64,000 bases of DNA from Hydractinia symbiolongicarpus (taxonomy: Eukaryota; Cnidaria; Hydrozoa; Anthoathecata; Hydractiniidae). Made by a program: the position numbers and the translations under genes. The notes beneath the pieces are model-generated. The model saw only the letters and a list, made by a program, of their open reading frames with translations. It did no database searches and was not told where the DNA came from. The DNA lies in NCBI RefSeq assembly GCF_029227915.1, contig NC_079888.1, positions 16,527,501-16,591,500 on the forward strand, given 5' to 3'. Within the stretch, counting starts at the first letter, position 1. Each line of letters begins with the position of its first letter. Of the stretch, positions 25,901-64,000 are shown in pieces.

Positions 25901-28900
25901 TTGAATGAAGGGAAGATTGTGGTGACCAAAAACAAAAAGAAATGCCTGCTATACAATATTCTTTTAAATTAGCAGTTGAAATTATCTATTTATTTATATA
26001 TCGATTAGAATACCTGAAAAATTTGCCATCTGATTCTCCAGATCGAGAAGAGTCTGAAGGTAAGTTATTGTTGCTGGAATTTTTACAATTCTATTAGCCT
26101 GCTTTGTCGTGCTTTATAGAGGGGATGGCTGCGTGGGGCTAGGGCTTGTTAATTTTGCACTTTGTGGAAAAGGTTTGTATATATCAAATATGAAAACACT
26201 ACGACAAGGGCAGAAACTTTCGGGTATCAAAAAAACCGAAATTTATGGAAAAAACTATCGTGTTTCGCGGTTTTTGGAACAAATTTCGCGAATAAGTAAA
26301 AAATAAAAATGTAGAAATTATTAAATATTTCTTGTGAATTCTCCTTATTGGAATGGCTTGCGCGATATTAAGCTGTCTGTCTGTCTGTCTGTCACGCAAA
26401 ATGGTAGCTTAGCTGCGACGGGCCAACCCGTGGATTTTCCACGGGCTAACGACTAGTATTGTATATTGATTAATGTGTCGTAATATTCTGCATGCTTTTT
26501 TAGCCTCTCTTGTCATCATATCAAAAGCAGCTAGACAGGCTAACGACTCCATGAAAGAAAATGTATGTGTTTCTTGCTTTCACTTGTGTTTTAGTTAGGT
26601 TTTTTTTGCAGACTGACGTTATTGTTGTTTTTTTAGAAAAAATTTAAAAAACTAATTGATATCGAAGATAAAATCCAAACTGGTCTAAATGGCGAAAGAT
26701 TGTTCACATCCAGCAGGGTAGGTCGAGCTTTTAACTGTAAAGTTTTTTATTTTGCTGTCGAAATTGTTTTATATAAGTTGCTTCTCATGTCACTTTTATT
26801 TGCAGGTTTTTTTAAAAGAAGGTGAACTTACGAAGATCGCAGCTCGAAGTATAAAGAGAAAGGCTCGTACTACTATTATGTTGGTAAGTCTCTTTTGTAT
26901 TTATTTTTTTAAACAAGATTAATTATGATGTCGTGTCAGTCTTTATTAATGATTAGAATCTGCAAAAAGAGGGGCTGTTCATATGGAGGCGAGCTGGCCG
27001 GGTTGACCGGGCTGACTCACTTGTTTCAGATCTTGCCATGTTTCAAACAACCTTATAAAACATAACAAGAAGCCCTGGGGGCTCTAAGAATTTCCGCGCG
27101 CTACCAAAATATTTGATGAAAACCTGATAATTCGTTGTGTTATTGTGCCAAACATTCGAAGGAGTTTGGTGCATGAACCTCTGAAGATAAAGCACACCAG
27201 TGACATTATATCTTACAACAAACGCAAACAAAACGAAACGTGTCATAATAAACTCACATTTTAATAGAAATTGCTAACAAAAAATACAGCCTATCTCATG
27301 GTTGAAGGTTTTGCGATTGAAACGTTTATGGTCTTAAACGGCATTAGTTGACAAAAAATCAAAATTTTGATGTGACCATCCTTTTAAGCATACTTTTTTT
27401 ATTAACTGTGGCAATTTTTGTCGAAAATAAAGCAGTTTTAATTTTTGGACCAATTTTGGCCTGAAATGGCATTTAGGTGACAATATCAAAATTTTGAAGT
27501 CAACATTATGTTCAGCATACTTTTTTTGTTAACTTTGCCAATTTTTGTTGAAAATGAAGTAGTTTTAATTTTTGGACAAATTTTGGCCTAAAATGACATT
27601 TAAAGTTGCAAAAAAACAAAATTTTGATGTCACCATCATGTTCACCATACTTTTTTGTTAATTGTGCCAAAATTTGTCAAAAATAAAGTAGTTTTAATTT
27701 TTGCACCAATTTTGGCCTAAAATGACATTTAGGTAACAAGAAATCAAAATTTTCATGTCACCATCATGTTCAGCATTCTTTATTTGTTTACTGTGCCAAA
27801 TTTTGTTAAAAATAAATTAGTTTTAATTTTTGGACCAATTTTGGCCTGAAATGACATTTAGGTAAAAGAAATCAAAATTTTGATGTCACCATCATGTTCA
27901 GCATACTTTATTTGTTAACTGTGCCAAATTTTGTCGAAAACAAATACCAATTTTGGCCTGAAACGTCAATACGAGACTTCCCAGTAGTTAAGGAGCTTGG
28001 GTACGAAGTTTACATCTGTGACGGAGGAACGTGAAATCCCAGGGTCGATTTTTTCTCAAAAAATGCTCCGAAAGAAAAAACGACGGTTTTAAAGAATTTC
28101 CTACGCCTTCGGGCGCGGAAATTCAAATATGTTCATTTGAAAAGCGAGATAATCCACTTTACTAAGATCTTGGTTGTTTCTACCGACATCCGAGCAAGGC
28201 GGGCAGGAATTTTTCTATATAAACACATCATGCCGGCTAACCGAGTTAACCCACATCACTTTGGAGCATGATCGAGACTATTTTATTTGTAGAAAGCATT
28301 TTTTATGTTTAAAATAGCCAAAATATTGAAGATTTAACCTTTTTGTCAATTTATATTACTATTGGTGAAAATAATACTATATTATACGCCTGGGAACAAT
28401 AAATATATAAAAACACTCCAAATGAATAACATTATTATCAAATTTGATCATTATTTTCACAAAACAAACATTATTTGTAGCATTCTCATGAATTACATAT
28501 TTTTGAAGAACCCTTGTATTTAGAACGCGATATAAAATATATAAACAAACTTTCATGACTTTCTTTAGCCCACCTAACCGGGCCAGCTCGCCTGACACGA
28601 ACGTAAAAAAAATTAGCCTGTCTAACCGGTAAATCGGGCTGGCTCACTTCATATGAACAGCCCCTAATACTATGTTAATAAATTTGTCTCGGTATTTAAA
28701 AGGTTAAACTATATTCGTTTCTTGCCAAACTCCTTCAATATTTTGTTGAAAAAACGAAATTTTTCTTTGATTGTTCTTTCTTTCAGTTTAACGATTGTTT
28801 GTTATATTGCTCACTCACAACAATCGGAAAGCTTCACGTCCGAAAAATCATGGATTTAGACGGATTGAGTATTGAGGAAGTAGACTCTACATTACCAGAG

Positions 28901-31900
28901 AATTCATTTCGTATCAAAAGTCGGCAAAGGATAATAGATTTAATAGCCCACAGTGAGGTGGAAAAGGAGGAGTGGGTGGCAGCCATAAGAGCTGCAGTCA
29001 CCGATCTTCATGAAAAAAAGGTTGATCTACTTGTAATTTCATTATGGTTGCTTACAAATCAACTAAAAAATATTTCATGTATCACCCAAAATTTTAGTGC
29101 ATTCTTTCCTTACAATGAAAATCAGTAAATATAATAAATAGATAGAATTTAAACCCTTAAATAGCCATAATACTGTGGTAAGTATTTAGAAGAAGAAGAA
29201 GAAGAGCTAGGAATTGAATCCATTTTTGTGTTTTTAATGTTTACTCATTGGTTTAAACTTTCTCGAAACGTTTTGTGGACATTTCTTCTTAGGTTCGATT
29301 GTTCCACGTCAACCAGAAAAACATCCAAAGAGCGATGGGACAGGATCAATCGGACAGGCTGCGCCTTTATGGGTGAAAGATGAAGATGTCTCCATGTGTA
29401 TGTTATGTGCATCAAAGTTTGGATTGGTGCATCGAAGACATCACTGTAGAGGATGTGGATGGGTATAGTTATTTTACTAAAATATTATTTATGAACTCTT
29501 TAAGAATTTATAACTTTCTAAAGAAAGACCAGAACTGATTACATAGCAACTTAATTTATTTGAAACAGGTGGTGTGTGGCACATGTTCAAGTTATCAAGC
29601 TAAATTGGAATACTCGGGTGATGAAGACCAGCGCATTTGTGTAGAATGTTTTAAAACACTTGAAGACGACACGACAGGTGTCCTGAACAAAAACCCAGCA
29701 GCTTCTATAGGTAAGATTAGTAAAGAATCCTTAGAAGTATTTTATTGCTAAAGTTCTAGGTTATTTATTCTGTCAAGAATGTTAGAAACCTAGTGCAATT
29801 GTCACAAAAGCGTCAAGACGTTTTACAAATATACTTTCCAAAAACGTCAAGAAATTGTGAATCATGTATGTTAAAGTGTAAACAAAAGTGTGAATGGACA
29901 TCTAACTCATAGTTAGCGAGTGAGGATACACGATTCAGAATATTTATAGAGGGTATAGCCACTTCAGTGCTAGAAAAACTGTTATCAATGTGGATCCTGC
30001 GTTCAGAATCTATACATTAAGTATACAGCGTTAATACCTACCCAATTTTCCTCACATGGCATGGGTTGACACGTAGTTGTGGTAAAGGCACTTGCTAAAG
30101 ATACCCACGATGTGGACCGAACCACGGACCTTGTGATTATTAAGCGAAATCCATAACAACAAGGCCACGCGCCACTAAGGAGCTAGTTTTTATAGGAAAC
30201 CAAAGCACAAGGGGTAACAAAATTAAAATGAACACACATCACAGTATGAATAGACGCCTAACTGTTTGCAGACACTATAAATGAGGTGTAAATGAACATT
30301 CATGAGTGATTAACAACTAAGTGTAAATGGACATCGAAGGATGAGTGAGAAGTGTCAATGCATAGTAATGTGTAAATAAAAGAGAAATAAGTATGACAGG
30401 ACACAATCCTGCATCAAAGTATGTAGAGACAAATTCAAAATTTAGACGTTTTCACTCCTACCTAGAAGTGAAAACGTCTAAATTCAATAATTTTGATCAA
30501 GATTGTAGGGAAAGTGGGTGCGAGACGCTCAAGTATGAAAGTGAGAAAGCTAAGATATTGTAAATTATAAATTTTATGGCACATACGTTTATCCCCCTTA
30601 ACTTTTTGCTGCCGCAGTGTGAAAAAGTTGACCAGTTTTTTTTAAAGTGACTTTCTATCGTTATCACAGGCTATTAAGGTTTCATATGTTGTCAATACAA
30701 ATATTTTCTGTTCTCCTTTTATTATAGAGTTAACTTTAGAGGTTATACTTTAAAATTTCTTGATTTAGATATGTGTGGAGAAGTGTTTTGGAAACCTCCC
30801 GGCAAAGGTTGGAGCAAAGAGTGGGTTGTTTTGACAGAGTTTGCGTTGTATATTCAAAAGAAAAAGCAAGTGAGATATTTTTTGTTCACCTGATTGGAAG
30901 AGTACATTATCTTACCTCCATGCTTACATCTATTGCTTTCATGAATTTTTCATGAGAGGAGCAGGCTTAGTATGTAAAGCTGTCTGCCTTGAATATGATA
31001 AAATGGCTTTTTTACTCAGCTTCTCTGTAGAGCAATGTTTATACCATTTGATTATATTACGACGCGCCTTTTGTCCAAAATTTACTCCATGTAGCAAAGC
31101 TAGGGTGTTTATACGAAAACATTTCATCCCATCTACATGCAGTTCCGAAAATCAAGTAAAATCTAACTTAAGTGAAACGAACTGCTTTTTACAATGCATT
31201 TTTATGAAAATGACTTTGGCCTGAGTTGGCCCTATATTTCAAGGCTATTTTAAGGATAATGAAAGCACAGATTACAACAGATTATAATTCAGAATACGTC
31301 TAAAAATGTTTTTTAAAATATTCTTGTAAGCATTTTTTATACGCATTTGCATTTAAAATTTGAAATTTATTTTCACGTTGCTTTAAAGTTATCCAACACT
31401 AAATTAACATTATTTACGATTTTATTATGTTAAGAAGCTATGTAGGCTTCAACACCTCTGTTTAATGTGTATATACTATTTTTCTGGTTGCCCTTTACAA
31501 TTCTGCACGGATGGTAGTGCGAGTTAAATTGACCAAATGAATTTCTTTTGTGCTTATTAATTGACAGCAAACACTGGTAAATTAATTTTAAATTTATGTA
31601 ATACAATTCTTCTTAATAGGATGTGAAAGCTCATTTCACGTTATCAGTTCCTGGGTATGAAGTTGATACCACAAGCTCAGTAAGTTTCATATTCACAGTT
31701 ATCCGAAATTATATTTATGACGTCATCAGCTGTTTAAAAAACAATTTGATACTACGGAACCGAGCATACATGTTCATATGAAGGAAATTAGCGTAATTCA
31801 TGAAATTTTATTCTCATAAATAATCATAATTTATTCCAGCCAATCTGTTTGACGTTTGACCTGTCGTCTATGACGTAACGTATGTCACGTGATAAAATAA

Positions 31901-41013: not shown

Positions 41014-42596
41014 CAGTCTTTTTCAGGAGAGGCATGCGATCGCACGCGCACACCTTGGCACAGGCCTAAATCGTTTCAGGCGTGTGATTAATCGCACGCC
41101 TGAAAAATAAATGTTGAGTTTTCAAAATCAACCTTTAAAATCCATTTTGTAGCGTGCGATGGCAGCCCTCGAAAGAATTTTTGGAGACTCGTTAGACAAA
41201 ACGTCCGATAGATTTCCGACATGGTCGGACACTTTTAGATCTCAGAAATTATTGAATAGTCCTGGTCCTTTTAATCCACGAGCAAGCCTATTCATAGCCA
41301 ACCTGACCATCCTAGCTAATTCACCGACTCCTGACTTAGACAACGTGCCATGGGAGAATTGTTTAACTGTCACCGACTTAAACCATGCATGGAACTTATT
41401 CAAATACTACTTATCAACCGCAATCAATAAACATGCGCCAATTAAAGAAAAAACTGTACGTGGAAAATCCAACCCCTGGATAACCAGAGAAATCAGAAAC
41501 TTAATGAATACGCGAGATTATCATCATTGCCGTTTTAAACGATCAAATTCTACCGGAGATTGGGAAAGTTATAAATCTTACCGAAACTCTGTAACCAATC
41601 GCATTCGTGTTGCAAAGGCAAACCACGTTCGTGCTGTTCTGAAAGAATCTTCAGCAAATCCAAGAGATTTTTGGAAACAAATTAAGTCGTGCTACCCTAC
41701 TAAAGATTCATCAAGTCCGAGCAAAACATTCGTAATCAATGGAACAGTAACATCCAATATTCGATCAATTGCGAACAATTTTTGATCTTTTTTCACTAAA
41801 GTTGGTTCATGTCTCATGAAATCATCAATAACCAACTTTACTTGGAAACTGTTCAACATACGTAATTATATGCGCACGATTAATAAAAGGAATGTATCAT
41901 TTAAATTCCAACCAGTGACAATTAATCAGGTGAATAGAGTACTAAAATCGGTTAAAACGGCTAAAGCTGCTGGTATTGACACTATCCCCGGTAGGATAAT
42001 TAAAGACATCTCAAACGAACTAGCTGCACCTGTCATGTTCTTGATAACCTGTGAAAAATCTGCAAAAATAACACGAATTGCATAAATCTGGCGATCGCTC
42101 AAACATAGATAACTACCGACCCATTTCCGTACTAAATGTGTTGTCTAAAGTCATCGAACAAATCGTCTACGACCAGCTAGCTGATTATTTAGAAAATCAA
42201 GATCTATTGAGTGAGCACCAATATGGTTTTCGACGAAAAAGATCTACACGTGAAGCGGTTAAATCACTTGTTGACGATATAAGATACAATATGGATAAAA
42301 GTAAGACAACTGGAGCTCTATTCATGGATTTGAGAAAGGCCTTTGATACCGTAAACCATGGCTGCCTTCTCCAGAAACTGCTTTATTATGGTATTACTAG
42401 CACTGAAATTGATTGGTTAAGCAATTATCTTTTTAATCGAAGTCAAACTGTTTTCATTGATGGAGCATACTCAGATCCTAAAAATATGACGCATGGTGTA
42501 CCCCAAGGTTCCATTCTGGGTCCATTGCTATTTATTCTTCTTATCAATGACTTACCGTGCCAATTGAAACACTGTCGAGTATTGATGTATGCTGAT

Positions 42597-43124: not shown

Positions 43125-44732
43125 CTATTTTTCACCATCAATGACCGATGTTAAATCCCCTGACTTGAGAACTTCCATCAGGGAAAAAGGAGATGCCCCT
43201 TTCTTTGTCAGCACATCGGCCATTTGATGTTTTCCATCGATCCATCGTAGGGTGACTTCATCGTTGTTGATCATCTGCCTTAAGGCATTTATTTCCACTC
43301 GGAGTCGTTTGTCTGATACTGCCTTGGTTGAACCAGCACATTCGAAGAGTGATCTACTATCAGTTAAACATACAACTTCAGGTTTTTCGGCTAAAGACTC
43401 TTCAATCATTTTAGCCAAGAAGAATGCTGTGTCAGCTCCATCTACAGAAGCTAGTGACTCCGCTGAAAGAGTTGAACGTACTACACGACGAACTTTATTT
43501 GAGCTCCAGGAAATTGGTGATGATTTTCCTGAACCATCAGTTAAGAAGGCGATATGACCACCTTGACTTTGACCTCCTTCGAGATTGTTGAAGCTGGCAT
43601 CAGTGAAAACCTTGATGCTTAGGTTATTCAAGGTAAGTTTTGGCACAGTAATGTGGCAATCTTGAGATTTCAAGAACTTTATCGTCTTATTGATGAGTTT
43701 AATATCAGCCAGAGTAGCTGTTGTTACTCTTGATGACACATCGCTTACGGTGAAGCTAATTTCTGGTCTTGACATACATGCCAACCAATTGAGCTTCCCA
43801 ATTGATTGTCTCATTTTAGATCTTTCAACTTCATTGATTGGTTCATCCTTAGAGCATTTTATTCTCTCCATACTGAGAGTGATTGGCTCTAGCTCATTGA
43901 TATAATCGGCTTGTTTGATGGTGATTGTTCCATCTTCATTTTGATCGAGGTCAATACCAATATATTTGAAGTGTCGTATATGTTCACTACTGGTCTTGAG
44001 GATACTCTTCAACTTTGATACCACATTAACGAAGGTAGAACTTCCTGCCCAAATCACGTCATCAACGAAACATACCAATATTCCGAAAATCAATGTATTT
44101 GAAGACCAGATGAATATTCCTTGATCTAGTTCAATAGGCTTTCCACCGAGTTGAATTAATTCACTTCGCAGTTTTAGGTACCAGCTACGACTTGCGTCAG
44201 CAAGACCATACACCGTTTTTGACAACTTCCAAAGGTTTTTGGTATTAGCCTCCTTCGGCGGCAGAACAATGACTTCTCTGTCAATCTTCTTTCCTTGAAG
44301 GAATGCTGTTTTGATGTCCAGAGAATTCAACATCCAATTTTTGGATGAAATTATCGTCAATGCTAATCTCAATCCTTCCTTAGAGCACGTTGGACTGTCT
44401 GTTTTAAAATTTTGGACTTCTTCAAAACCACGTGCCACAAGTCGTACCTTAACTGAAGGTTGGCCATCAATAATCTTTGGTGTTACAACCCATCGTAGAC
44501 TCATAGTTTCTTGTCCTTCATTAGGTATCTCGATGTAGACTGAATTGTTAATCCATGACTGTAGTTCTTTTGACTTTGCTGACAGTACTTCACTGCTGTT
44601 GGTGATCAGAGTGACTTCTGACACAGTCATATATTCATCAAGCAAGTCGTTGAATGAAATGATATAAACCAACCAGATTATTACGAATACCTTGGGATTC
44701 AACTTGATACTCACCTTAACATGAACCATCAC
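43125..44732 (-). CDS. Ty1/copia-type polyprotein fragment: reverse transcriptase and RNase H, open frame
   Basis: The 535-codon frame has no internal stop. The RT catalytic residues are present (SLDIKTAFLQG and FVDDVIWAG), with the copia-typical WKLSKTVYGL between them. The RNase H residues follow (VFTDAS, SAESLAS, CLTDSRSL, HQMADVLTK). Gag, protease and integrase are missing, so the element is a 5'-truncated remnant and not autonomous. The first part of the frame (44732 to about 44650), including the only upstream ATG, is antisense LINE sequence, so the apparent start is an artefact of the insertion. Such elements replicate through RNA; this copy lacks what that needs. Its intact frame suggests a fairly recent insertion. 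Confidence 0.85.
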   Translation of the reverse strand: MMVHVKVSIKLNPKVFVIIWLVYIISFNDLLDEYMTVSEVTLITNSSEVLSAKSKELQSWINNSVYIEIPNEGQETMSLRWVVTPKIIDGQPSVKVRLVARGFEEVQNFKTDSPTCSKEGLRLALTIISSKNWMLNSLDIKTAFLQGKKIDREVIVLPPKEANTKNLWKLSKTVYGLADASRSWYLKLRSELIQLGGKPIELDQGIFIWSSNTLIFGILVCFVDDVIWAGSSTFVNVVSKLKSILKTSSEHIRHFKYIGIDLDQNEDGTITIKQADYINELEPITLSMERIKCSKDEPINEVERSKMRQSIGKLNWLACMSRPEISFTVSDVSSRVTTATLADIKLINKTIKFLKSQDCHITVPKLTLNNLSIKVFTDASFNNLEGGQSQGGHIAFLTDGSGKSSPISWSSNKVRRVVRSTLSAESLASVDGADTAFFLAKMIEESLAEKPEVVCLTDSRSLFECAGSTKAVSDKRLRVEINALRQMINNDEVTLRWIDGKHQMADVLTKKGASPFSLMEVLKSGDLTSVIDGEK

Positions 44733-46288
44733 CTTAAAAAAACATACAAGCGTATAACCTCACGCATCAAACTTTTATATAAAATACGTTACAAAATTTC
44801 TCCAAATGTTGCTGAAACCATCTTTAACTCAATGATCCACCCACTGTTCTTTTACTGCTACGACATATTTGGTGGAATGAATAAAACACGGATTGGAAAA
44901 TTTGAGTCCTTGCTGAGAAGAGCTAAACACATCATCAAAACCCGCAAGAATTGGTCAACATTCGTCACTCAAAGAAAACGGAAAGTAGCAATTGATGTGT
45001 TCAAAGCCGTTAACGATATTACTGTTGACAGCAATTACAAATTGGTTAGCCATTCGATTAACACCAGAGGAAATAGATTTAAATTAGTCTTACCTATCAT
45101 TAAGACGGAAGCTGGTCGGAAGCTTACGTATTATCAAGGAGCTTTAGTTTTTAATAGTCTCCCTTCTAATATCAGGGAAGAAAAGAGTATGATAAATTTT
45201 AAAAAGTTTTTGAAACAAAGTGAGTTCTAGGTCTATTACCTTAGCTTGATTAATTTTTTGCTGAGATACCCTGTAGCTACAAGGCTTTGTGAATTTAGAA
45301 TCCTATTTTTCAAATTCGATTTTTGCAACTTACCTCAGCTTGATCCTATACGTTACAGGGTGTCTCGGAGATACGCTATTGTTTCTCTGATTTCTAATGT
45401 TGTGAAGTTTGAATCCTAAACTCAAATTTTTTCTAATTCCCATTTTTGCTAATTTTTCTGTTCATAGTCTGCTATTTGATTCTTATTTTCTTTTCTTTCT
45501 TTTTTTTTTCTAACATTCTCATAATTTTATATATATTATTTAAAAACAAAAAACAATTTTTGGCTCTTTGTTTACTTTGTTTATTTTTGTTTTAACAGGT
45601 CACTCGTTGATAACAGTGCAGTTATATTATATCATACTGAAGATGTAAACCTGTATAAATATGATTAATAATAATAATAAAATAATAATTAAAAGAACTA
45701 CGTAGACATAACTCTCTTTTGCCTGGCCCCTTCGTTGTTGGTCACCAGGTCTTACACAAGAAATCCAGCCATGCGGTTCTTAACTAATGCGGCGGTGAAG
45801 GCCGGCGGAGCATGGATGAAGCAAGTCTGCAAAACTGCACTCACAGGCAGAATAGACATTTTATCATGAATTTAATTGTAGATAATTTCTTCAGGTCCGA
45901 ATTTAATGGATTTTTTCTTTATGCCAGTAAAAACGAAACCCACGTGCAGTGTAAATTTTTTTGAAGTTTTAAGCCACGTGGATAAAGATTTTTTTTAACT
46001 TTAAAACAAAGCATATTTTTGCCTATTTGCTTGTGATGACCTGAAAAGTGAACAATAAATATAAAAATGACAGTATAGTCATGCATATTATTTCGGACAT
46101 GCTATACCAGTAGACTCTCGATCATCGTGTTTGGGGTTCACGATTTAAACGTCCACTTTTCTACCACAAAATGAATGCCTGTGTCGTATGCGTATCATTC
46201 TTTGCACATGTGCTTCACATCGCACACGTTACTTGATTTACACGTGCGAATCATCGCACACCTACCCAAATATTCCTGAAAAAGGCTG

Positions 46289-50379: not shown

Positions 50380-53300
50380 ATGTTGGGAATGGATAATAGT
50401 TTGCTTGGATCTGAGGATAGCTCTGCTGTCTCGTATATCTTAGACCAGGAAGAGCATACGCTAGCATTTGGAGAGGATGCAACCTTGCAACAAATTAAGG
50501 TAAAGTTGCTAAATTAAACATCGGCTAATAAGCACTTTATTTGTAGAAGTTGAAACAATTTAAAATACCAGTCATAGTAAAATTTTGTAGCCATTTTTTG
50601 TGGTTCTGCTATTTGCATCCTAAATGCAAATAGCTGCAGCGTACATGGTAATGCTATGACATTAAAACTAATAGCAAGTTCTAACATCAATGGAAATCAA
50701 GTATTTCTTTGCTTTTTAATGCAAAAAACGCCATAGAAGTTCTTTAACCTGAATTAACAATATATCCACACAAGGCACTAAAGACAATGTTGTTCCACCA
50801 CATTAAAATTTGTGAAATGGTATTTCTTTGATTTAGTCATGATTAGACCGGCAATATGCGAAAAATTTAGCAGATAATGCATGCCAACTTGCTGACTATC
50901 CAGATTATCTGTTTTATTATTATACCCAATCGATCTTTGTTGTCTTTTGATTTACCTTTATAAAATTCCCACCTTAATCATTTTTAAAACATTTATATAT
51001 TCAAGTTCGCTTAGTTAAAAACCAAAGAAACTAATGCTTGAGTGATTTAAATGATGAAATTTAGCATAAATTTGATCATTAAGAGCTTGAAAAAGATAAA
51101 TTATTTAATATTTATTTTTGCTAAGGGGTATATAATATTATTAATTATTCCTTCCTATAGAAGTGAGAGATTTTTCAATCTTTAGTTTTTTTGATTTAGA
51201 CATAGTTTTATTCTTTGTTTCTTCTCTTTTAGAATGACTTTGCAAGTGGTGGATACACTGAAATTAAATTCTTTAACTGTGCACCCATACCAGTGCAAGC
51301 CTTGTGTGACATTATACCCACAGTGAACTCAAATTTAAAATCGTTAATCATCTGTGATACGCCTTGGATCAATGATGAATGCATCGAGTTATTTACTGCG
51401 TACTGTCATAAATTATATAAAATTGAACTTCAGGGATGTCTTGTACATATTACACGCTCTGGCATTGAGTCTATCAGTAGAAATTGTGGTTCACTTCTTT
51501 CGTTGTCAATTGTATCTACTCCGATTAATGATGTTGCGCTAGCACAAGGTAATTGCTGTAAGGAACAATGGATGCTGGATAATAGAATGTTTCCAGCACT
51601 TATAAATAATATGAACTCAAAGCTCAGACATTTTGCTTTATCAGGTTTTGATACATTAACTACTGATTCGCTTATAAAATTTCTGTCATATTTTAAGGGA
51701 ACGTTACAATCGATAGATTTTAGTGAACTTAACATTATTGATGAAAGTGTTTTGAAATGTATTGGTGAACACTGTAACCGTTTGTTTATACTGAAGTTGA
51801 ATCATTGTATAAAAATAACAGACACAGCTATTTGTATGTTGTTATCTAAGAACTGCAACATAGAAGTGCTTGAGTTATGTGGCTGTCAACAGATAAGTGA
51901 CATTTCATGCGATGCAATTTCGAAAAACTGCCCGAAACTTTCCATCATTAAGCTAGACAATTGTAAAAGATTAACAGAAAAGTCACTGTCATGTTTATCG
52001 AAGGAGTGTAAAAGACTTTCTTATATCAGCATGAGAGAAACATCACTTAGAAGTCTACCTTACGTTCTTGGAAGTTTAAAATATCTAAGCTTCTTAAACG
52101 TAGATGGATGTGCTCAGTTGACATTTCCACCCAAAGAAATAATTTCAAAAGGTGTTGCAGCAATACAGACTATTCTTTGCGAACACAATATTTCACATCA
52201 AATCCGATGCATGCTCTTAGGGAGCTCTCAAAGCGGAAAATCTAGTATCATGTTTGCTTTGAAGGGTGAACAGATAAATAATTTAGATGGGGAGACTTTT
52301 GGTATTCCTGTGCAGAAGTGGTATCCCTTAGAAGCAGGTTTGAAGTACTCAGTATAAAAATTTGGGGGAAAACCTTTTTACTAAAACTTTTTTCAACACT
52401 GCTTTTTTCATGTGGTTTTATTACATTTGCTATCTTAATATAAACCTGAACAAGCATGCCATTAAACAACTAAAAAAAGGTCAGTTTTATTAATTTTTTT
52501 TTAGATGGCTTGAACATTTTACCAAAATTTTGCGAAAACACCTCACTATCCTTCGAGTTGTGGGATTGCACAGGAAGACAGGTGACGTAGTTTTGTATGC
52601 ATTCCTTCATGCTGTATATTACTACCCTGGTTTTACAGGAATTAGGAATGTAAAATTACAGCACTAATTCTTTTTTCAGCATTATGAAATTATGATGCAG
52701 AAGAACATTTATTGCAGTGGGTTCTTTGAAGCATAATAGCTCCAAAATTCTAGAAATTTGTGGATAAATTAAACATACTACTGGCTTGATTCTCTTTTTT
52801 TTGTTTTTCCTATTTAGATTGTCTTAAAGGCTTTTCATCATAATTTGATAAGTGACATATTTCATAATTCTCTCTTTTTTTGAATATTTTTTGCCTGACG
52901 TTTTAAATTAATTTTGATTTGTTTAATATAGTGTATGTAAAAATAAGACAGACAACCAAAGACTAGGCAAAGAAAAGAATTAAAATAACAAAAACTTGAT
53001 AAATTGTATTTATAACTGTTACCCTTTTTATGTTTATAGGCTATGGAAGGCGTACATGCATTCTTTATGAGCAAAAGAACAATTTACATTGTCGCTTTCA
53101 ACCTTTCTGTTTATAATAGTGCTGATAAAGTTGCAAAATGGGTCAGCACAATCCAGGCTAAGGTAAATATAACTGTGTTGCATTCTTTGCGTTGTTTTGC
53201 AGACTAGTTTCTGCTAAACATTGTTTCCAGGTTTTTAATATCTGCATCTTGTGAATGATTTACAGTCTATATGAAATAATTTTTTGATTTAATATTTGAA

Positions 53301-56300
53301 TGTTTATAGGGACCAGGTTGCAGCATAATCATAGTAGCGTCTCATCATGATTTATCAACACAACCAAAAACAACACAGGCTTGTGAAAGAGTCATGAATA
53401 AAGTGAAAGAACAAGAAGAAAACCAAGTAGCTGAGATTAAAGAAGAGTTGCTTTTTTTAAGGTACAACTTTGAAAATTCATACAAAAGAGTGACAACAAG
53501 AAAATTAATTTTGTTCTATTAAATGTCTTTCTTTGGAATTCGTGGTAAGGTTAAGACAAAATGTGTTTCACTATTATGTGTGTATAGTTATAATGAGACA
53601 AATGCAAAATTGTGTTGGAAATTCTACCTCATAATTTCATAATGTTTGTAGGGCTAGGAGATCCGATAATTGTATTTCATCATTGAGAAAGGGAAGCAAC
53701 ATGAACAAATCATTTTATTTTTTCTAGAGATTTGGGATTATTTGCAATGATTAGTTCAAAGCGACGTAAATTGGAATGGTTGTTAGAAAACAGACCAGCA
53801 GTTCATCCAGTGATTATTCCTGTTAGCTCAATAACAGGCGAGGTTAGTATGGATTTTTTTATACATCTGGAAAGTTCTTTTCGAAATGACATATATGTAA
53901 AATGCTGTCATAAGTACAGGCTGTCAAATCCGACGCGAATCCGCAAATCTGATGCGCATGCAGACTCTTGTGACCTCCGATACCGGGAATTCAACCACAT
54001 TCGTGCAATTAATAACATTAGTCACCACATTTCTACTCTATTTCTACTCTTTCCATATTGGTGAACCTTCGAACAAACACTTCGTTCCCTGCCAAGGTCT
54101 AACATTTGCTGTTGATAGTTACCATTTTAGTTTTCCCTTTAATGAAGTCAAATACTTTACAAAACAGTTGTTGATTATCATACATCAAGCCCTTGCGCGC
54201 AGATCATCAGGAACCTAATTATCGGGACGAGTCTGGTTATCGACTTATTGAGTGACTGCATTTATGACCATTGTTAAGAAGTATAGAGCTGTGTGAGTGG
54301 CATTGTTGTATTCTTTACCAATAGGGTATTGATGAGCTGAGAAATACTATGTTAATGATTGCATTGGAAGTTGAAAGATATGCACCAGTTGTGTCAACAA
54401 ATGAACTAGAAAATTTGTTTCTCGAAATTTGTAACAAGAAGAAAGAAGGGATTGTCATCTTAAAATGGAGTGAGGTTGTTGAAATGATGAAATCATATAA
54501 AATGGATTCTGCTAGTATTTTGGAATTGCTTAAAGAACTTGACAAACTTGTAAGTCAATGTTTAGTTAGTTGTTTAGTGGCCACACCTATATTATTTTAA
54601 CCTAAGAAGATGGAGACTCCACTAAAATCTCCTAATAGCCTAAATTTGAACCAAAAATATCAATTATCTTTAAAATATTCCAAAATTGTTTAATTCTGAC
54701 ATGCATTTTTTTCTTTCTTGTTGGTTATAATGTTTTGAAAAAGGTAACCAGTATGATGTCAGAAAAAGCTTGATAATTGTCTATTTCCTTTTTGTCGAAA
54801 TCTCCTGCAAAATAAAACTTTGCACGTTTTTATTGTTTTTTAAATTTACCATCCTGGTTAGAAAATACCTAGATGGACTTTGAAGCTAAATTTTTCTTTC
54901 TTGCATGTTATTCTATGTTAAACAGAAATCATACCGTCAGATTCTTGTTTCTGATTTTTTACAGAGTTTTCTTTTTAGAAAGAAAAAAGAACCTTTAAAA
55001 CTTTGAATCGTTTTTAAATTTTAAGTGTATGTCATTATGTAACTGCTTTTTTGTCAAAGGGAAAATTCACAAAGTTCTTTAGTGACAAGGAATACAATTG
55101 GAAAAATCATATGGATGTTTTCAGGGAATGCTCTTTTGCAAAATAACAAAATAATTAGATGCAAGTGGGCTAAGCTGCACATAGCTTTGATAAGAAAAAT
55201 AAAAGCAGATATTTTGAACTTGAAATGTTCATTTATATTACATACTGTGATTGTTAATTAAATTAGTATTACCCATTTTGTTCTTTTTATTTTTTATTTT
55301 GTCTCGTTTTTTTGTTTACTTCTATCACCATTTTTATATTTCCCTTACTATGAGATCATAAGGCTATAAGCTTTGTGTATTGAGGAAATTTCCACTGCTG
55401 TGACCTTCTGTTTACAGTTGTAAAATCTGCTATATTCAAGATAAACATAAAGAAATTTCTTAATTTTACCAAAATACTAAACGGCATAACTGTAACGTAG
55501 TTCTGAAACATTTTGTTTTTGTTTTAGGGTGTTGTCATGTTGTTGAACACATGTCTGGTTTCTTCAAGTTTCACAGATATTGGTAATGACTGTCTGGTTT
55601 GCACAAACCCTCCCTTACTTGCTGAAGCAATCTCTGCTTTGCACAGAAACGAACCTAACGCTCAAGATATTGTAAATTATCTTACCCGGGGTGGACATAT
55701 TGACAATATTTGGACTGGTAACAAGCCTAACGATTGGACATTACGTAGCACATTTAATAATATTACCACAAATGGAGTTATCCGTGAATGTATCGTTCCT
55801 GTTCTGCTTTGTGTAATATTGATTTTATAACCTCTATACCTTCAGTGGAGACATTTTTGCAGAATTTATTATTTTTTAGTTCCTATTTGCAAAATTGCAC
55901 TTTAGAGGAGCAAGCTAAGAAAGTTAGTTTTGCAAGAATTATTTCCAACAGAAATATTTTCACTTAAGTTGGGTGTGTTGTGATTTAAAATATATATATA
56001 CCTGGTAACATCATAAAGAAAAAAGTTCCAAAGGCTAATTTTAATGTAAAAAAATGTGTAAATTTTTTGGTCGATGGAACAATTCACCTTATACGGGCTT
56101 AAATATGGAATTGAAAAAGATGGTGGTATTTTTTTGTCACAAAAGTCGCTAATTTTTGCAAAAAAGTAATTCCCAAGTTTTGCTGTGCTACCTTGGTCCT
56201 TCTTGTTCTTCAAGAATTCATTGTAATAAATTCAGTCAGATGACACAAAATTTTGGCAGGATGAATGCAAAATTTATTAAAACTTTCATTATGCGGGGAC

Positions 56301-59300
56301 ATACTGAAAGTTTTCAAAAAATTATAAAAGTGCCTGATTTTTAGAATGTGGATAAGTAAGATAAATTGAAGATCAACATGTTTTCTACATTAGCATCAAC
56401 AGAAGTATTTTGTCTTTAGAAATTAAAGCTATCTGATCCTAGGCAGTTTGAACTAATCATCGAAGCAATCAAAAGTCTTTTTGTGCTAGTGAGTGGAGCT
56501 CCAAATGCTAGTTACGATGTGGAACTAATCGTACCCAACATGAAAGCCTTATCAGTATACAAGCGCTACTTTTTACCATTGCAAGGACTACTTCCAGTAA
56601 TACCACAGGTAAAAAAATAATATTATATCTTAACCCATTTGCAATTTGGTATCCAACATGAAAGCCTTATCAGTTTATAAGTGCTACTTTTTACCATTGC
56701 AAGGATTTCTTCCAGTAATACCACAGGTAATAACCAATTATATTTTTTACCCATTTAAAAACTAGAAACTTCCAGTGCCGTTTTCTTTTGATCCGGTTAT
56801 TTGAGGTAATTAAAGGCAAAGACACGCTATCCGTTTTTAATGATCTGTTTTCAACGTTCTATTTTAATGACATTAAAAATGAATAAGACAGTGTGAACAC
56901 ATTACATATGACTAGCGAAGTAGTTTCACATTTTTAAGTCGATTGTAAGTCTTCTATTCCTAAGTTCTGCTGAAGACATTCAAAGTTTTGCAACTTGTTT
57001 CAATGGTTATAAAGTCCAATTTGATTTCCATCAACGTTCTCTCTAAACTTAAGGAAATTTTTTCTTTGTTCTCGTTTTATAATTTTGTACGCAAAATATG
57101 TTTATACGCCAAGTTAAGCGATAGATCGAAAACATCCAGACTAAACCCAAAGTGTATGTTTTTTTAACCAAAACATGTGCATTTATTTTAGCTTAATGCA
57201 TGGCTTCCAAAATGTCCACCCACCCACATTCAAGTTGGTTGGAACTATCGTTTTGTTGGTTCAATTCCCCCACATCTGTTTCTCACTCTCATTTCTGCAT
57301 GCACTCTGGTGCACAGCACTTCTGAGACGCTTAGTTATTGGCAATCTGGCGCATACCTCAGATGCAGTGATGTTGATGTGAACGTCTGCCAGTGGAAGGA
57401 TAAATTGGTGCTGCAAGTTCTAGCTCGCACAAAGAGTATTGCTGGGACAAGACAAGCAGTAAATAAAGCTTGGTGTTGTTTAGCAAAGTATCTTTATACT
57501 GTTGAGATGATTCTCGCCTCGTTTCCTGGACTGTACTATGAAGTAAGTAAGATGTTTTTTTTGCTCATTTGTATTTGTCTGCAAATAAGGAAATTTTTAT
57601 AGAAACATCATTCAATCAGATATGTTGACTGTGTGTTTGTATGTATCTTCCTTTTCTGGCTTTGATCTCTATTTTACCATGTTTTTATATTCTGGAAATT
57701 TACTATACGAAGGTTTCTCTGCGTTTAATTCTCTTTAATTCATGAAGCTTTCGCGTAGAGCTGGCCTGAAAACAATTGATTGCGCAAAAAATGCTATTTT
57801 TTTGTGCATTGTGCATTTGGTTGCGAAAATTTGATGAGAATAGTACATGGTTTACAGTTTTATAATAATTTATTTCCTAAATCAAATGAAATTAAAGAAC
57901 ATCAATAAAAACAGTTTATCCATGTTGGTTGATGTTATAAGATTGAAGAAACTTTGAGCAGCTATCAGACACCTAAAACTATTTGTTTTTATATAAAAAA
58001 GAAAGATTAGGCAAGACTTTGAAGGCGCTTAACCTAGGTGTGCGAAAGTTTTATTACAAATTGGTGTGAAATTTTTTGGAATGAGAATACATAGAAACGA
58101 GCGAAAAAGACCAGAGTTGTGTTATTTAGTTTTTTTAAAAAATGTTCAACTGTATAGTTCGGCCATCTTGTTGTTTTAAAAACATTTTGTTTGTTCCACC
58201 AGTTGCATTTTCGTGTCATATGCATTTTTAGGTATTCCAGCTAGCATTTGCTCATCTCCTTATATGTAGGATTTCTTTTACTGTTATTTCTGTTATTCCA
58301 GTCACACAAAATGTCTTTTGTTATAAAAATGTGCTTCTTATCAGGGTGGCCGCAGTTTATAAAATTTCCCAAATAACTTGCAAAATGAAAACCCTCATAA
58401 AAATCTCCTAAATAACTTGCAAAATAAAAACCTTCATAAAAATCTCCCAAATAACTTGCAATATGAAAACCCTCATGAAAATCTCCTAAATAACTTGCAA
58501 AATGAAAACCTTCATAAAAATCTCCCAAATAACTTGCAAAATGAAAACCCTCATAAAAATCTCCTAAATAACTTGCAAAATAAAAACCTTCATAAAAATC
58601 TCCCAAATAACTTGCAGAATGAAAACCCTCATAAAAATCTCCTAAATAACTTGCAAAATGAAAACCCTCATAAAAATCTCCTAAATAACTTGCAAAATGA
58701 AAACCCTCATAAAAATCTCCTAAATAACTTGCAAAATGAAAACCCTCATAAAAATCTCCTAAATAACTTGCAAAATAAAAACCTTCATAAAAATCTCCCA
58801 AATAACTTGCAAAATAAAAACCCTCATAAAAATCTCCTAAATAACTTGCAAAATGAAAACCCTCATAAAAATCTCCCAAATAACTTGCAATATGAAAACC
58901 CTCATGAAAATCTCCTAAATAATTTGCAAAATGAAAACCCTCATAAAAATCTCCTAAATAACTTGCAAAATGAAAACCCTCATAAAAATCTCCTAAATAA
59001 CTTGCAAAATGAAAACCCTCAAAAAAAATCTCCTAAATAACTTGCAAAATGAAAACCTTCATAAAAATCTCCCAAATAACTTGCAATATGAAAACCCTCA
59101 TAGAAATCTCCTAAATAACCTTAGTATTTTCTCCAACTCCTTACTAAATTCCCTTTAAATGACGTTTAAACGGCCACCCTGTTTATGTCGTCTTTATCTA
59201 CGGCACAAAAATATTTAATCTTGAATGTATATCTTTATTAGGTTCTATCGGTTACCAGCAGTCATTGTAAACCAGTGTTGGAAGTTATTGACGAATTTGA

Positions 59301-62300
59301 AGCAGGAGATATCAGTGAGCCTGACGTGCTTTGGTTTATCCCATTGAAAGGTACAAAAGTCTCGCCCATCCACTTCTTACTTCTCAAATGTAATTTAAGG
59401 TGATGTACAACGTGTGCTGTGTACCTCCATAATTATAGCTGTCTTTGTGTGTACAAAATGGTTGCCAACAGCTTTATCCCCCCCCTTTCCAGCTTCAACT
59501 GGCTGTAAAATATTCAGTAAGGAGTATACAAAATAACAACACAGGGAATACTTGCCACGGACAAATTTATAATAATAAAAACTGAACTCCCTATGCTACC
59601 ATTTTTAATTTAATAATTAAGATGAATTAAAGTATGAACTGAAAAGTTTCGTTGATTGTTTGTGATTGATAAGTTCATATAATCAACAAAATAACAGCAT
59701 CTCTAGATTCGAGAGGGATTTTTATTTTCGCAATCAAGGGTTTCTTTGTTACATTTCATAGAGTTTTTTAATGACGCAACATCGGGTAGGGTTAATTACG
59801 GATACCCATAATGTTTTCAACCATAATGGTGGCGATTCAAATTCTAATTGCTCAACAAGATCTTATGACAAACTGGGGATAATCTGCAGTTTTGTCAAAT
59901 TTTAGGAGTCTGTTTAACCAGTAGGTTTGTAAGCTTATTTTGTGTGCAGTGTTTTGTTTTTAAACTCTTTTATTTGCTCGTTTGATCAGCTCCTTGTGTT
60001 GTCAACATTGTTTACATTGATCGATAATAACAATTTCGTCCTCGTTGTAAACAAACATGGCTGCGAGCTGCTTTTTAACAGCCAAATACAGTCTAGAATA
60101 TTAGTTTTTGTTTTTATATGGCTTTCAGGGTAGCCATATTGTCTGGAAATCTTCTGTGCCTATGTTTATATTTTGTTTAATCTCAAGTGAGAAGATTTGT
60201 TCAGATTTTAAATCTAGAGATTTAATTAATCGCATGCAAGCTTTATTAACCAGTACATTTAGATGACGAAAGATGAGGGGCACAAACTTTGTGTGATATA
60301 AATTAAACAATGTCTATTTACTTATGTATATTGTTGCTTAAAAAAAAGGCGGGAATCTACTATCGTTTGTATTGTTCAAAGTTGTCCTTGTTGTATAATA
60401 CACTTCTTTCTACATATAAGAACATAGTTTGTAACAATATATGTTTCAACCAGCTGCCATTTTGCGAACGGCCAATGCAGCTAATAGCCGGATTCAGATT
60501 CCATCAGAAGTTTGTTTTGTTCTTTCGTAGACACAAAAATCTTTATAGTTATTTGATCTAAATTTTTTATGCATTAGGTTTATAAGCTCTCAAGTGTACT
60601 TCGGTTTTTCTTTCTTTTTAATATCATGGTTTGCAGAGAAAAATAATTTTTAAAACGTTTAAGGTTATGTGAAATTTGAAAAAAAGTTAGATTGAGCGTG
60701 GTCTTATGTTGAGATAAAATTTTGTTGTCGAGAGAAACACAAAAGGGTTGTTTGATTGCATTTTTAAGTCTTTGAGAAAATTGCAAAGCCCGGATCTAAG
60801 AAAAAGATACGAATGCTGAGACGTTTTTCTGTTTATTTCCTTTGTTTGTTTGTTTGTTTGTTTGTTTGTTTGTTTGTTTGTTTGTTTGTTTGCTTGTTTG
60901 TTTGTTTGTCGATTTGTTTATTTGTTTGTTTTTTTTTGTTTGTCGATTTGTTTGTTTTCTTTATTTTTTCTGATTACAATAAATTGTGTCTCTAAAAAAT
61001 TTCCATCATTCAAACCTGTCTGTTTCAAGATAATTGAAATTCAGTTTAAAAAGAAATTTTAAAACTATCATTCTGCACACTGTTGCTTAAGAATAGTTAA
61101 GGCTATGATAAAAAATGTGTTTTTTCTTTAAACATTTTGATGCTACAATTTTTTTTCTTATGTTTTTGTGATCACTTAATAAAACATCATTGCATCCCAT
61201 TCACATACTGTTGTTTCATTGTAAAAATAAATTTCTTCATAAGTGAAAAGCCCATCTCGGAAACCGATAAAGGAATGTTTTTGTTTACAGGGTGAATAAA
61301 AAAGCTCCATTTTCTACGTTTTTTTTTGTGATATTCTCACTTTCATATATATTTGAACTTTTTTTCTCCAAAACATGTTAATAAAGGACATCTGCAGATT
61401 GAATATTAGCTTTGCTTTTGTTTTTCCTGTGTTTCCTGCAAAAGTATATGTCTACAAATATCTGCCATCGTTTATAGGTGTATAAATATATATTTTTTTT
61501 TCTAGGTAGTATCAGAAACTCAATACGATCTGCATCACTCCCGCCAAATTATTTTCCATGGCTGAAATCCATTTATGGTACGTACAGGTGGATGTTAGTA
61601 TGAGTTCCTTCTTGTTAAGTTTTTATTTTATTTATTTACTCGGATAGCATAGTCGGTCCCCAATGGTGTTAATGGAGGGTCCTGCAAAGAGAGTTCAAGG
61701 TATATTTAAAGCTTCCATTTGAGCTACGCAAAGCTCTTCTTTCAGCTACAAAAGGCGTTCAAACACTATAACAGCCTAATTAGACAACTGCCTAAAATAT
61801 CAATCCTCTTCTTATAAATGCTAAACGTTAAGCAGAAATAATTGATTTCCTTGTCTCTGGAATGACTCGGCCGGGTTTTTAACGTTTGCATGTTTTTCTG
61901 AAGAAATTCAACGTGACTAATGACCTGCACCAATGAAGTGTTTAATGACGTACTACAGTCCCGTGAACATGGCATGCCCAAATCACGTGACATGTCAATG
62001 CACGAAGATAATTTGATAATGTTTAAATGTTGTATTGTAATGTGGTATTGCAAAAACAAAATAAACCTTGTTAGGCTGTATTCTCTCCTTAGAGAGAGCA
62101 AAGCAGGAGCAGGAGATAAAAGAAATTTAATACGATCTAAAATTAGGTGTGATGTCGAATATCATTAGTTAGACCATTGCAATAATCGCGTTGTACGCAG
62201 TGTTATGGTGATTTTGAATTTATTACAAGAATGTGCTCTTTTACACTCATTAGTGCTCTGCTTTTAAATGGAACATAAGAAATATCTGAAGTTGCTAGTA

Positions 62301-62878
62301 TCAAACTGTGATATTCTTCGAGGACTTCTTGTGCCGTTTCTCTGTGATGTTTTTCGTGCATGTGCTAACATCTATGTCGGAAGTCAAAAAGCAATATATA
62401 AAGTTGCGAAAGTGAACAATTTTGGCTCAGTAACTAATTTTTTTGCCAGCTAAAAAGTTTTTGTCGACCTTTTTTTTAGTCGGCTTTTTTGTTGCCAGCG
62501 AGGTTGTGAGAAATAGAAGAAAATGTCGTTTTTTTCGACGTTAATTCCTTGTTGTTTCATGCTGAATTCTAATGGGAGAGTCTGTGAAATCAAAAGAGTC
62601 TGTGAAATCAACAGATACTCACAATCAAGAGTCACTCTCTTAAGTTATCACTGTTTATGCGTGTATGACGTCACTGGAATTAAATCGTCGTTTATTATCT
62701 GTTTGTCTTTTTTAGATCAAAACAAAGTTTATTTGAGCTTCTCGTCTGAGCTTTCAACTGAAGTGAAATCAATAAAACACTATCTTCAATCGGCTGGTTA
62801 CGACGTTTCCACCGACCAAACCGACCCCATCGGTGCTGTCGACGAATCTCGCTTGATTGTTTGCATTCTGTCGGATTC
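50380..62878 (+). CDS. LRR-Roc-COR (Roco) protein with a C-terminal TIR-like exon; 3' end outside the window
   Basis: Exons: 50380-50499, 51233-52337, 52505-52581, 53040-53162, 53310-53461, 53728-53842, 54325-54549, 55528-55812, 56420-56608, 57192-57542, 59242-59350, 61506-61577, 62716-62878. They join in frame to 1028 codons and end at a donor, so the gene continues beyond 64000. Residues about 41-360 are leucine-rich repeats, many cysteine-containing (LKLNHCIKITDTAICML, LELCGCQQISDISC). The Roc GTPase domain has P-loop GSSQSGKS at about 370-377 and a DxxG (ELWDCTGRQ). COR spans about 530-960 (GSIPPHLFLTLI). The last exon begins KVYLSFSSE and reads as the first half of a TIR domain (YLQSAGYDVSTDQ, ESRLIVCILSDS). 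Roco proteins are dimeric GTPase scaffolds (LRRK, MFHAS1); TIR domains act in immune signalling or NAD cleavage. The catalytic half of the TIR is not visible. Confidence 0.88.
56529..56768. repeat. 120-bp tandem duplication across the exon 9 donor of the Roco gene
   Basis: Bases 56529-56648 (exon 9 end plus intron start) are repeated at 56649-56768. The second copy keeps CCACAGGTAATA, a usable donor, but has no acceptor in front. Reading through from exon 9 meets a TAA straight after the first donor, so the copy is a relic and not coding. Confidence 0.85.
58372..59118. repeat. 39-bp minisatellite, about 19 units, in Roco intron 10
   Basis: The unit is AACTTGCAAAATGAAAACCC plus TCATAAAAATCTCCTAAAT (39 bp). 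Two main variants are interspersed (TGAAAACCC with CTCCT, and TAAAAACCT with CTCCC). Because 39 is divisible by three, frames stay open on both strands (13-residue periods NNLQNENPHKNLL and GDFYEGFHFASYL). It sits inside an intron of a well-supported gene, so neither frame is called as coding. Confidence 0.9.
60841..60957. repeat. (TTTG)n microsatellite
   Basis: A near-perfect TTTG repeat with a few substitutions in its second half. It gives spurious Phe-Val-Cys-Leu ORFs. It lies in Roco intron 11. Confidence 0.95.
61640..61775. mobile_element. Possible SINE body fragment in Roco intron 12
   Basis: Words such as GGAGGGTCCTGCAAAGAG and TTTGAGCTACGCAAAGC resemble GGAGAGTCCTAGAG and TTTGAGCTACGTAGACC in the SINE at 39240-39537, in the same order and similar spacing. 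No tRNA-like head is seen. Confidence 0.35.
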
Positions 62879-64000
62879 GTAAGTATAATCACTCCGTTTT
62901 CATGTTAAAAAAGCAGTTGGTGTGTGAAAATGACGGTTTTTGCCTATGTTGCTAAAAATTAGTCAAAAAAAATAATATATATATACATATATATATATAA
63001 AATTAGCGCAAGATATATAAAACGTTTATATGCGATGCATGGACTTGGATGTTTGCAACGTTAGAATGTCAACCTTCACAACATCAGTAGCAAGATTTTG
63101 ACCCGCATGTTCTTTCTAGATCCGTGTGTGTGGGGTAAACAAAAGATTTTCTGCGTTTTTATTAAGTTCTGTGGAAGTTTGGGGCTTGATTCAGGTTTTG
63201 GGAAATATGTTGATTGTATCATGATAAATGGTGTGTTTAACCAATGAAACTTGGTCAATTTCGTTTGTTTCTGTAAGTTGATCAGAAAGGGAATGCGGAT
63301 AATAAATACTTCAGAACAAAAACACTTGTGAAGGACATGTATATAGAGAGAGAGATTTTCAGTACATATATGGAAGGAATTATATTCTGTTATCGGTGTG
63401 TTAATGCCTTTCTTTTAGCTGTTTTACTCTACTCTAAATTAAGATATTTTTATCCATGTCAATCCAATAAAGATTATCTCATGCTCGACCTGTGTAATTT
63501 TTTCATTTATAGTTCTTGCTTTAATTAAAGTGACCTCCATGTTTTTAGAGATTACAGGATTAAGCGCCGCTGATTCATCTCGAATACAGTTATAATGAAA
63601 AAAAAACCGTTTAAACTTAAAATCTCATTTTTAGCTGGCGCATAGAAAAGATAAAAAATAGTTTTTTTTTTCAATGCGACAGTTAATAATACGGACGGGA
63701 CCTGAATTTGTGCACGTGAAGTAGAAAAGCTGTAGGGTGGAGAGTGTCACATCCTTCCCCACAAGTTGTTTTTTGTTATTGTGATATCAAGAATAGTTTG
63801 ACAGTAATGAACATAATGAGGTTTAATGAGCCTTTTTAATTACAGTTAATCAGCTTTCCTGTGCGAAGCCTAGTTGTGTCTGTTTGTGTGTGGTCCGCAA
63901 CAGAATGTGCGATGTTGTACAATATTTCCTGTCTTAAGTACATCGTGTAACTGACGCACGAATGTGACATGACCAGGTCACATATAATGTTGTTTATCAC
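62879..64000. other. Start of the last visible Roco-TIR intron
   Basis: No exon completing the TIR domain was found before the window ends. A TA-rich microsatellite lies at about 62972-62999. The remaining ORFs are short and without family resemblance. Confidence 0.5.

Follow-up and report, generated by a model that had tools for sequence, protein, structure and literature searches.

A Hydractinia Roco gene with a divergent, probably non-catalytic TIR domain and a predicted C-terminal prenylation signal

We analyzed a 64-kb stretch of the Hydractinia genome (64,000 nucleotides, hereafter the window), which holds most of a gene for a Roco protein that joins leucine-rich repeats (LRRs), a Roc GTPase domain and a COR domain to a divergent TIR domain. 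Within the window the gene consists of 13 exons on the forward strand (50380-62878), separated by 12 GT-AG introns with compatible phases, and encodes a stop-free frame of 1028 amino acids (aa). The initial annotation had described a single spliced frame carrying LRR, Roc and COR followed by TIR-like motifs, a description that holds up: GSSQSGKS lies at aa 370-377 (exon 2) and KVYLSFSSE...YDVSTDQ...LIVCILSDS in exon 13. It had also regarded the protein as unfinished at 62878, and the end of the window indeed splits the TIR domain, whose frame reaches a GTAAGT donor at 62879 in phase 2. Extending the sequence (30 kb fetched, of which ~28 kb lie past the window end) and searching with related proteins by tblastn located two further exons; the genome searched comprises 480.9 Mb in 76 contigs, and the window occupies 16527501-16591500 of its contig C14. 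The complete frame of exons 1-15 encodes 1264 aa in the order LRR (FBXL-like), Roc, COR, TIR and alanine-rich tail, with the C-terminus CVII. The exons are as follows; the last two carry window-equivalent coordinates past the window end.

50380..50499, forward strand: exon 1, predicted start ATG, aa 1-40; aligns with the N-termini of the relatives P0001 and P0002 (see below)
51233..52337, forward strand: exon 2, FBXL-type leucine-rich repeats (seven units by pattern) and the Roc P-loop GSSQSGKS
52505..52581, forward strand: exon 3, Roc, with WDCTGRQ, which we take to be switch II
53040..53162, forward strand: exon 4, Roc
53310..53461, forward strand: exon 5, Roc, with the G4-like motif ASHHDL
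53728..53842, forward strand: exon 6, end of Roc, with SSITG, presumably the G5 motif
54325..54549, forward strand: exon 7, Roc-COR junction and COR, from profile comparison with four prokaryote-like Rocos
55528..55812, forward strand: exon 8, COR, from profile comparison; donor GTAATA
56420..56608, forward strand: exon 9, COR, from profile comparison
57192..57542, forward strand: exon 10, C-terminal half of COR, from profile comparison
59242..59350, forward strand: exon 11, post-COR segment, aligned with relatives
61506..61577, forward strand: exon 12, linker LPPNYFPWL, colinear in relatives; donor GTACGT
62716..62878, forward strand: exon 13, first part of TIR (strand A, helix A, strand B, loop and strand C, by homology)
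67809-68071: exon 14, entered in phase 2 after TTTTAG and left in phase 1
69153-69598: exon 15, entered in phase 1 and ending in TAA

Two exon borders required a choice. An end of exon 8 at 55790 has no GT behind it, and 55812, before GTAATA, was taken; for exon 12, an end at 61587 was dropped in favor of 61577, which matches the phase of exon 13. Read by eye, exon 13 is open in one of three phases, the same phase that exon 12 leaves, and none of the other listed acceptors, five in all, that reach the GTAAG donor at 62879 has a tract as rich in pyrimidines as the AG in front of 62716 (9 of 10). The phases of exons 13 and 14 match (2 into 2), the alignment with P0002 shows no gap at that point, and the TIR domain runs uninterrupted over the join, the window gene reading ...ESRLIVCILSDSYFTEDKLSLIKNNI... 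and P0002 ...RAGLILLLLTNKYLEERNFDTVKLAL... Window-equivalent positions 64001-66500 are N in the fetched genome sequence, and any exon there is invisible. The DNA of exon 2 has a single match in its own genome, which is exon 2 itself.

Two repeats lie within the introns of this gene. The 3' half of exon 9 (56530-56608) is duplicated in the following intron (56648-56726; 72 of 79 bases identical), with no usable acceptor in front of the copy as judged by eye. Intron 10 holds a 39-base unit in ~19 copies with 93% match (58361-59119), in which long frames arise by chance on both strands.

Relatives were collected in three protein searches, two of which limited scoring to the 7989 and 7995 candidates with the most shared words. 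They include P0001 (1032 aa, 12 members) and P0002 (1274 aa) from EukProt, P0006 (532 aa, JGI), P0007 (921 aa, ENA) and P0008 (630 aa) from the octocoral Paramuricea clavata, together with four distant Rocos that we call prokaryote-like (P0003, from a Caldilineaceae bacterium, P0004, P0005 and P0009). Starting at aa 17 or 11 and running to aa 1003, the window protein matches P0001 and P0002 at 41% identity, and the gene is therefore more than a chance reading of the DNA. Identity to P0007 and P0008 is 29%, for P0007 over aa 367-1005; since P0007 is 79% identical to P0008, it is probably octocoral-like as well. The third search, with aa 560-1140 of P0002, returned P0001 and P0002 only.

These relatives also bear on whether the TIR exon belongs to the same gene. 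In P0001, P0002, P0006 and P0007, COR leads colinearly into the same TIR-like segment. This makes a pair of neighboring genes unlikely and bears out the initial proposal of one gene, instead of a Roco gene followed by a separate TIR gene. P0008 stops at the first TIR strand and P0001 at strand C. The contigs that carry P0006 and P0007 without interruption measure 2431 and 3664 bases, which leaves no room for introns of the kind found in the window gene, itself more than 10 kb long; P0006 and P0007 are thus probably spliced transcripts that join COR and TIR.

The N-terminal repeats of the window protein find their best match among solved structures in F-box/LRR protein 2 (FBXL2; E 7.1e-29), then in FBXL17, with SKP2 lower. 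Seven units were recognized by pattern, some of them 26 residues apart, and four in P0002; no F-box was matched in the scanned window protein or in its tail. Toll-like receptors have extracellular LRRs and a transmembrane helix. FBXL proteins are intracellular, and FBXL2, which shares this LRR type with the window protein, ends in a CaaX box and is not known to have Roc, COR or TIR. The Roc domain is recognized by Pfam at 55 bits (E 1.2e-14, cut-off 27), alongside Ras and weak LRR matches, and three of its G motifs can be placed (G1 GSSQSGKS, G3 WDCTGRQ and G4 ASHHDL). With a family profile (A1), the best solved-structure matches are the Roc domains of LRRK2 (3.7e-15). G3 of the window protein (WDCTGR) has Arg after Gly, as does that of LRRK2; the window protein differs from LRRK2 in its TIR and CaaX tail, and domain profile scans of aa 1-1028, 952-1116 and 1117-1264 matched no kinase domain. 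COR was located by profile-profile comparison with the four prokaryote-like Rocos (probability 92.5, P 4.8e-7, 230 columns). Agreement with these proteins is weak for COR and good for Roc (P 2.8e-23), and P0007 gives a very weak Pfam COR match (E 0.16). On this comparison, a COR domain is present directly after Roc, in divergent form.

The TIR domain is likewise divergent. The Pfam TIR_2 model scores 14.7 bits on the 1028-aa window protein, under its cut-off of 28, 21.7 bits (E 3e-4) on the 56-aa peptide of exon 13 and 25 bits (E 2.8e-5) on the domain completed past the window end. P0007 reaches 29.4 bits as a fragment, over the cut-off, and 26.3 as a whole protein, and 4 of the 5 members of the family alignment (A4) match TIR_2 at E up to 1, the best at 1.2e-6. 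As references, 23 of 34 TIR_2 places in the same genome were taken, and 13 domains were kept; 8 were dropped for a likeness of 90% or more to a retained domain, and 2 because they contained stops. Against these 13 domains, the family TIR profile scored a probability of 96 and a P of 4.9e-9 over 83 columns (hhalign), whereas the best of 50 column shuffles gave P 0.019 and control profiles of Roc, COR and the prokaryote-like Rocos gave P 0.14 to 0.32. Because the shuffles and control profiles match so weakly by comparison, the domain is assigned, on its profile, to the TIR superfamily as a divergent member. The initial TIR call, made from motifs, thus stands in the profile comparison with its controls and in the P0007 fragment; the completed domain itself stays under the TIR_2 cut-off (25 of 28 bits). 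The genome as a whole holds at least 34 TIR_2 places, 30 of them over the cut-off, and eight mutually similar ones (L009-L015 and L017) lie within 1.3 Mb at 12.69-13.93 Mb of one contig (C2). This cluster is probably a recent local TIR expansion; its kept copy, L009, carries the CxxE motif.

NAD cleavage by TIR domains such as those of SARM1, plants and bacteria needs a glutamate in helix C. Counted from the anchoring tyrosine (Tyr+9), this position is Ile at aa 1039 in the window gene, Val in P0002, Leu in P0006 and Asn in P0007. [SN]CxxE is found in 8 of the 13 references from the same genome; two (L021 and L025) reach the site without the motif, L025 reading CKSG, perhaps past the exon end, and L022, L023 and L029 end before it. 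A shift by one residue would place a glutamate in P0007 (CFEE); the window gene, P0002 and P0006 have nothing similar nearby. Relative to the references, the window gene also has ~8 residues fewer between strands B and C. Because the window protein has Ile at the catalytic position, and its relatives Val, Leu or Asn, NAD cleavage by this TIR domain appears unlikely, and the glutamate check suggested in the initial annotation for an NAD-cleaving TIR turns out negative.

The TIR domain is followed by an alanine-rich stretch (26 Ala among the 71 residues 1160-1230), then by PKSSM and the terminal CVII. The last four residues are CAIL in P0002, CTIL in P0006 and CVVL in P0007; P0001 and P0008 end upstream of this position. 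What is conserved here looks like a CaaX box, a predicted prenylation signal. CaaX boxes direct prenylation, and Leu or Ile as the last residue suits geranylgeranylation. FBXL2 is lipidated by the GGTase-3 route, and the combination of FBXL2-like LRRs with a CaaX box suggests, by analogy, that the window protein might be lipidated in the same way.

The architecture itself has been published. NG1 ("Novel Gene 1"; van der Burg et al. 2016, PMC5094078), present in every actiniarian examined there, has an FBXL-like LRR, Miro/Ras/Roc, a low-threshold COR ~300 aa downstream and TIR_2, with no vertebrate ortholog. The same text lists TIR_2 together with GTPase domains for bacteria, Crassostrea and Trichoplax, and describes Roc/COR, death and kinase domains for NG3. 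NG1 and the window protein share the order of FBXL-like LRR, Roc, COR and TIR_2, a kinship judged by architecture alone; NG1 is known from sea anemones, whereas the animal of the window is probably a cnidarian outside the actiniarians. In the Aplysia immunome (PMC9334734), Roco domains occur in five proteins: two Toll-like receptors (TLRs), two that are MyD88-like and one other with a TIR domain. These proteins combine Roc, COR and TIR as the window gene does; some bear MBT, EF-hand or death-like domains, and the portion of the paper available describes no FBXL-type LRR for them. Bacterial AP-GTPase (Roc)-COR proteins, as presented in a 2021 eLife study (PMC8195603), include LRR-Roc-COR forms and carry TIR among at least 24 types of C-terminal domain, so that they share LRR-Roc-COR and a C-terminal TIR with the window protein. 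Large TIR proteins with LRRs are reported in a placozoan paper (PMC6321704), and neither 'Roc' nor 'GTPase' occurs in the accessible text of PMC8260672 and PMC1896004. The novelty that the initial annotation saw in the fusion is accordingly anticipated by NG1 and, for Roco-TIR, by the Aplysia proteins.

Judged by its domains, the window gene is a further member of this published Roco-TIR architecture and brings with it an octocoral-like relative, with the CaaX box and the lost glutamate as extra features. The main text of PMC5094078 contains no instance of 'prenyl', 'CAAX' or 'catalytic', a search for Roco together with prenylation and CAAX returned only titles on other subjects, and neither the CaaX tail nor the lost glutamate of Roco-TIR proteins was found in the accessible parts of the literature searched, in which subscription journals are thinly covered.

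Taken together, the sequence features favor, with reasonable though far from full confidence, a 1264-aa Roco of NG1 architecture (LRR-Roc-COR-TIR-tail) that would act as a membrane-anchored, GTPase-gated TIR scaffold without enzymatic activity. The prenylated tail would keep the protein at the membrane, where the LRRs might sense a protein partner or ligand. Cycling of Roc-COR between nucleotide states would change the oligomeric state, and this change would expose or cluster the TIR domain, which could then bind other TIR domains as a scaffold or brake, without NAD cleavage. An innate-immune output would be the likeliest setting, given the company that TIR domains keep. More tentatively, the window gene and the octocoral-like lineage might represent a class of animal proteins in which Roc-COR gates an enzymatically dead TIR at the membrane through the protein's own C-terminal prenyl group, that is, a TIR adaptor needing neither a transmembrane receptor nor MyD88; we consider this broader idea possible rather than probable.

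Several results weigh against this scaffold reading. The completed TIR domain falls short of the Pfam gathering cut-off of 28, and the window sequence alone aligned with the TIR references no further than strand C (53 columns, P 1.7e-6). Neither the A4 profile nor the P0002 segment matched a TIR among PDB sequences; the best match in another PDB search with a TIR piece, the TIR-domain protein 8btn, is unconvincing (E 0.71), and an NCBIfam scan gave no TIR match. AlphaFold models reached a mean pLDDT (predicted local distance difference test) of only 36.0 and 37.8, probably owing to thin alignment depth, and offer no readout of the flavodoxin-like five-strand fold that marks TIR domains. The Pfam COR model does not match the window protein, and the gene model was read from genomic DNA and relatives alone. 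The residues identical to P0002 amount to 141/321 in the LRRs, 97/230 in Roc, 153/355 in COR, 25/98 in TIR and 63/103 in the tail; conservation is lowest in the TIR domain, which fits a relaxed and an adapted function alike. Finally, the models of the octocoral-like P0007 and P0008 have no LRRs, as they begin a short way ahead of Roc, and their G4 is degenerate (ASNCEV). Either these proteins have lost their LRRs or their gene models are split.

The uneven conservation would also suit a non-immune Roco, with the TIR domain as a mere protein-binding module or in decay. LRRK-type proteins act in trafficking, the cytoskeleton or development, LRRK2 has the closest Roc among solved structures, and COR and tail are strongly conserved; yet the TIR domain has been kept in P0002, P0006, P0007 and the window gene, and partly in P0001, while P0008 ends at its first strand. 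We regard such a role as a serious possibility, if a rather doubtful one. A GTPase-switched NADase in the manner of plant TIR-NLRs or SARM1, which would have to work through a non-canonical residue, draws on the assignment to the TIR superfamily, on the CFEE of P0007, one residue off the expected place, and on the C-terminal TIR effectors of bacterial AP-GTPase (Roc)-COR proteins (PMC8195603). None of the 4 family members long enough to include the tyrosine-anchored position has the glutamate there, and the strand B-C segment of the window gene is short; the missing glutamate rules catalysis out as the leading reading and leaves it quite improbable.

Two further alternatives concern the gene rather than its function. 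An LRR-Roc-COR gene next to a separate downstream TIR gene might be suspected from the 1.1-kb intron before exon 13 and the weak TIR score inside the window. The splice phases are exact, exons 14-15 continue the frame, the relatives are colinear in single proteins and the transcript-like contigs appear to join COR and TIR; phases, relatives and downstream exons rule this arrangement out, and we attach next to no weight to it. Retention of intron 13 in alternative transcripts would bring a stop just after strand C (LSDS-stop) and could yield a short form with a regulatory or dominant-negative role. The end of P0001 (LTNK) falls on the corresponding border, like an unspliced reading from 62879, but GTAA behind an exon in phase 2 invariably brings an immediate stop, which makes the coincidence cheap, and P0002 and P0006 continue past the border; a short form of this kind seems improbable.

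If the membrane-anchored scaffold reading is right, the window gene would encode a GTPase-switched animal sensor-TIR protein, found across cnidarian lineages, that combines a pseudo-enzyme TIR with a predicted lipid anchor, and would represent a distinct wiring of TIR signaling. The sensor-switch-TIR proteins of plants are STAND ATPases (TIR-NLRs), and sensor-switch-TIR proteins also occur in bacterial systems. The lost glutamate and the CaaX box provide two plainly testable features.

Elsewhere in the window, exon-like frames at 7491-8555, 10305-10643, 22842-23504 and 28700-29125 encode RhoGEF (26 bits, just under the cut-off) and PH domains and are possibly FGD-like. The frames at 7491 and 22842 look alike by eye, have no Pfam match and perhaps stem from two tandem copies. 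Two reverse transcriptase frames, RVT_1 and RVT_2, lie close together at 42072-42596 (forward strand) and 43128-44759 (reverse strand) and are probably of LINE type and Copia type.

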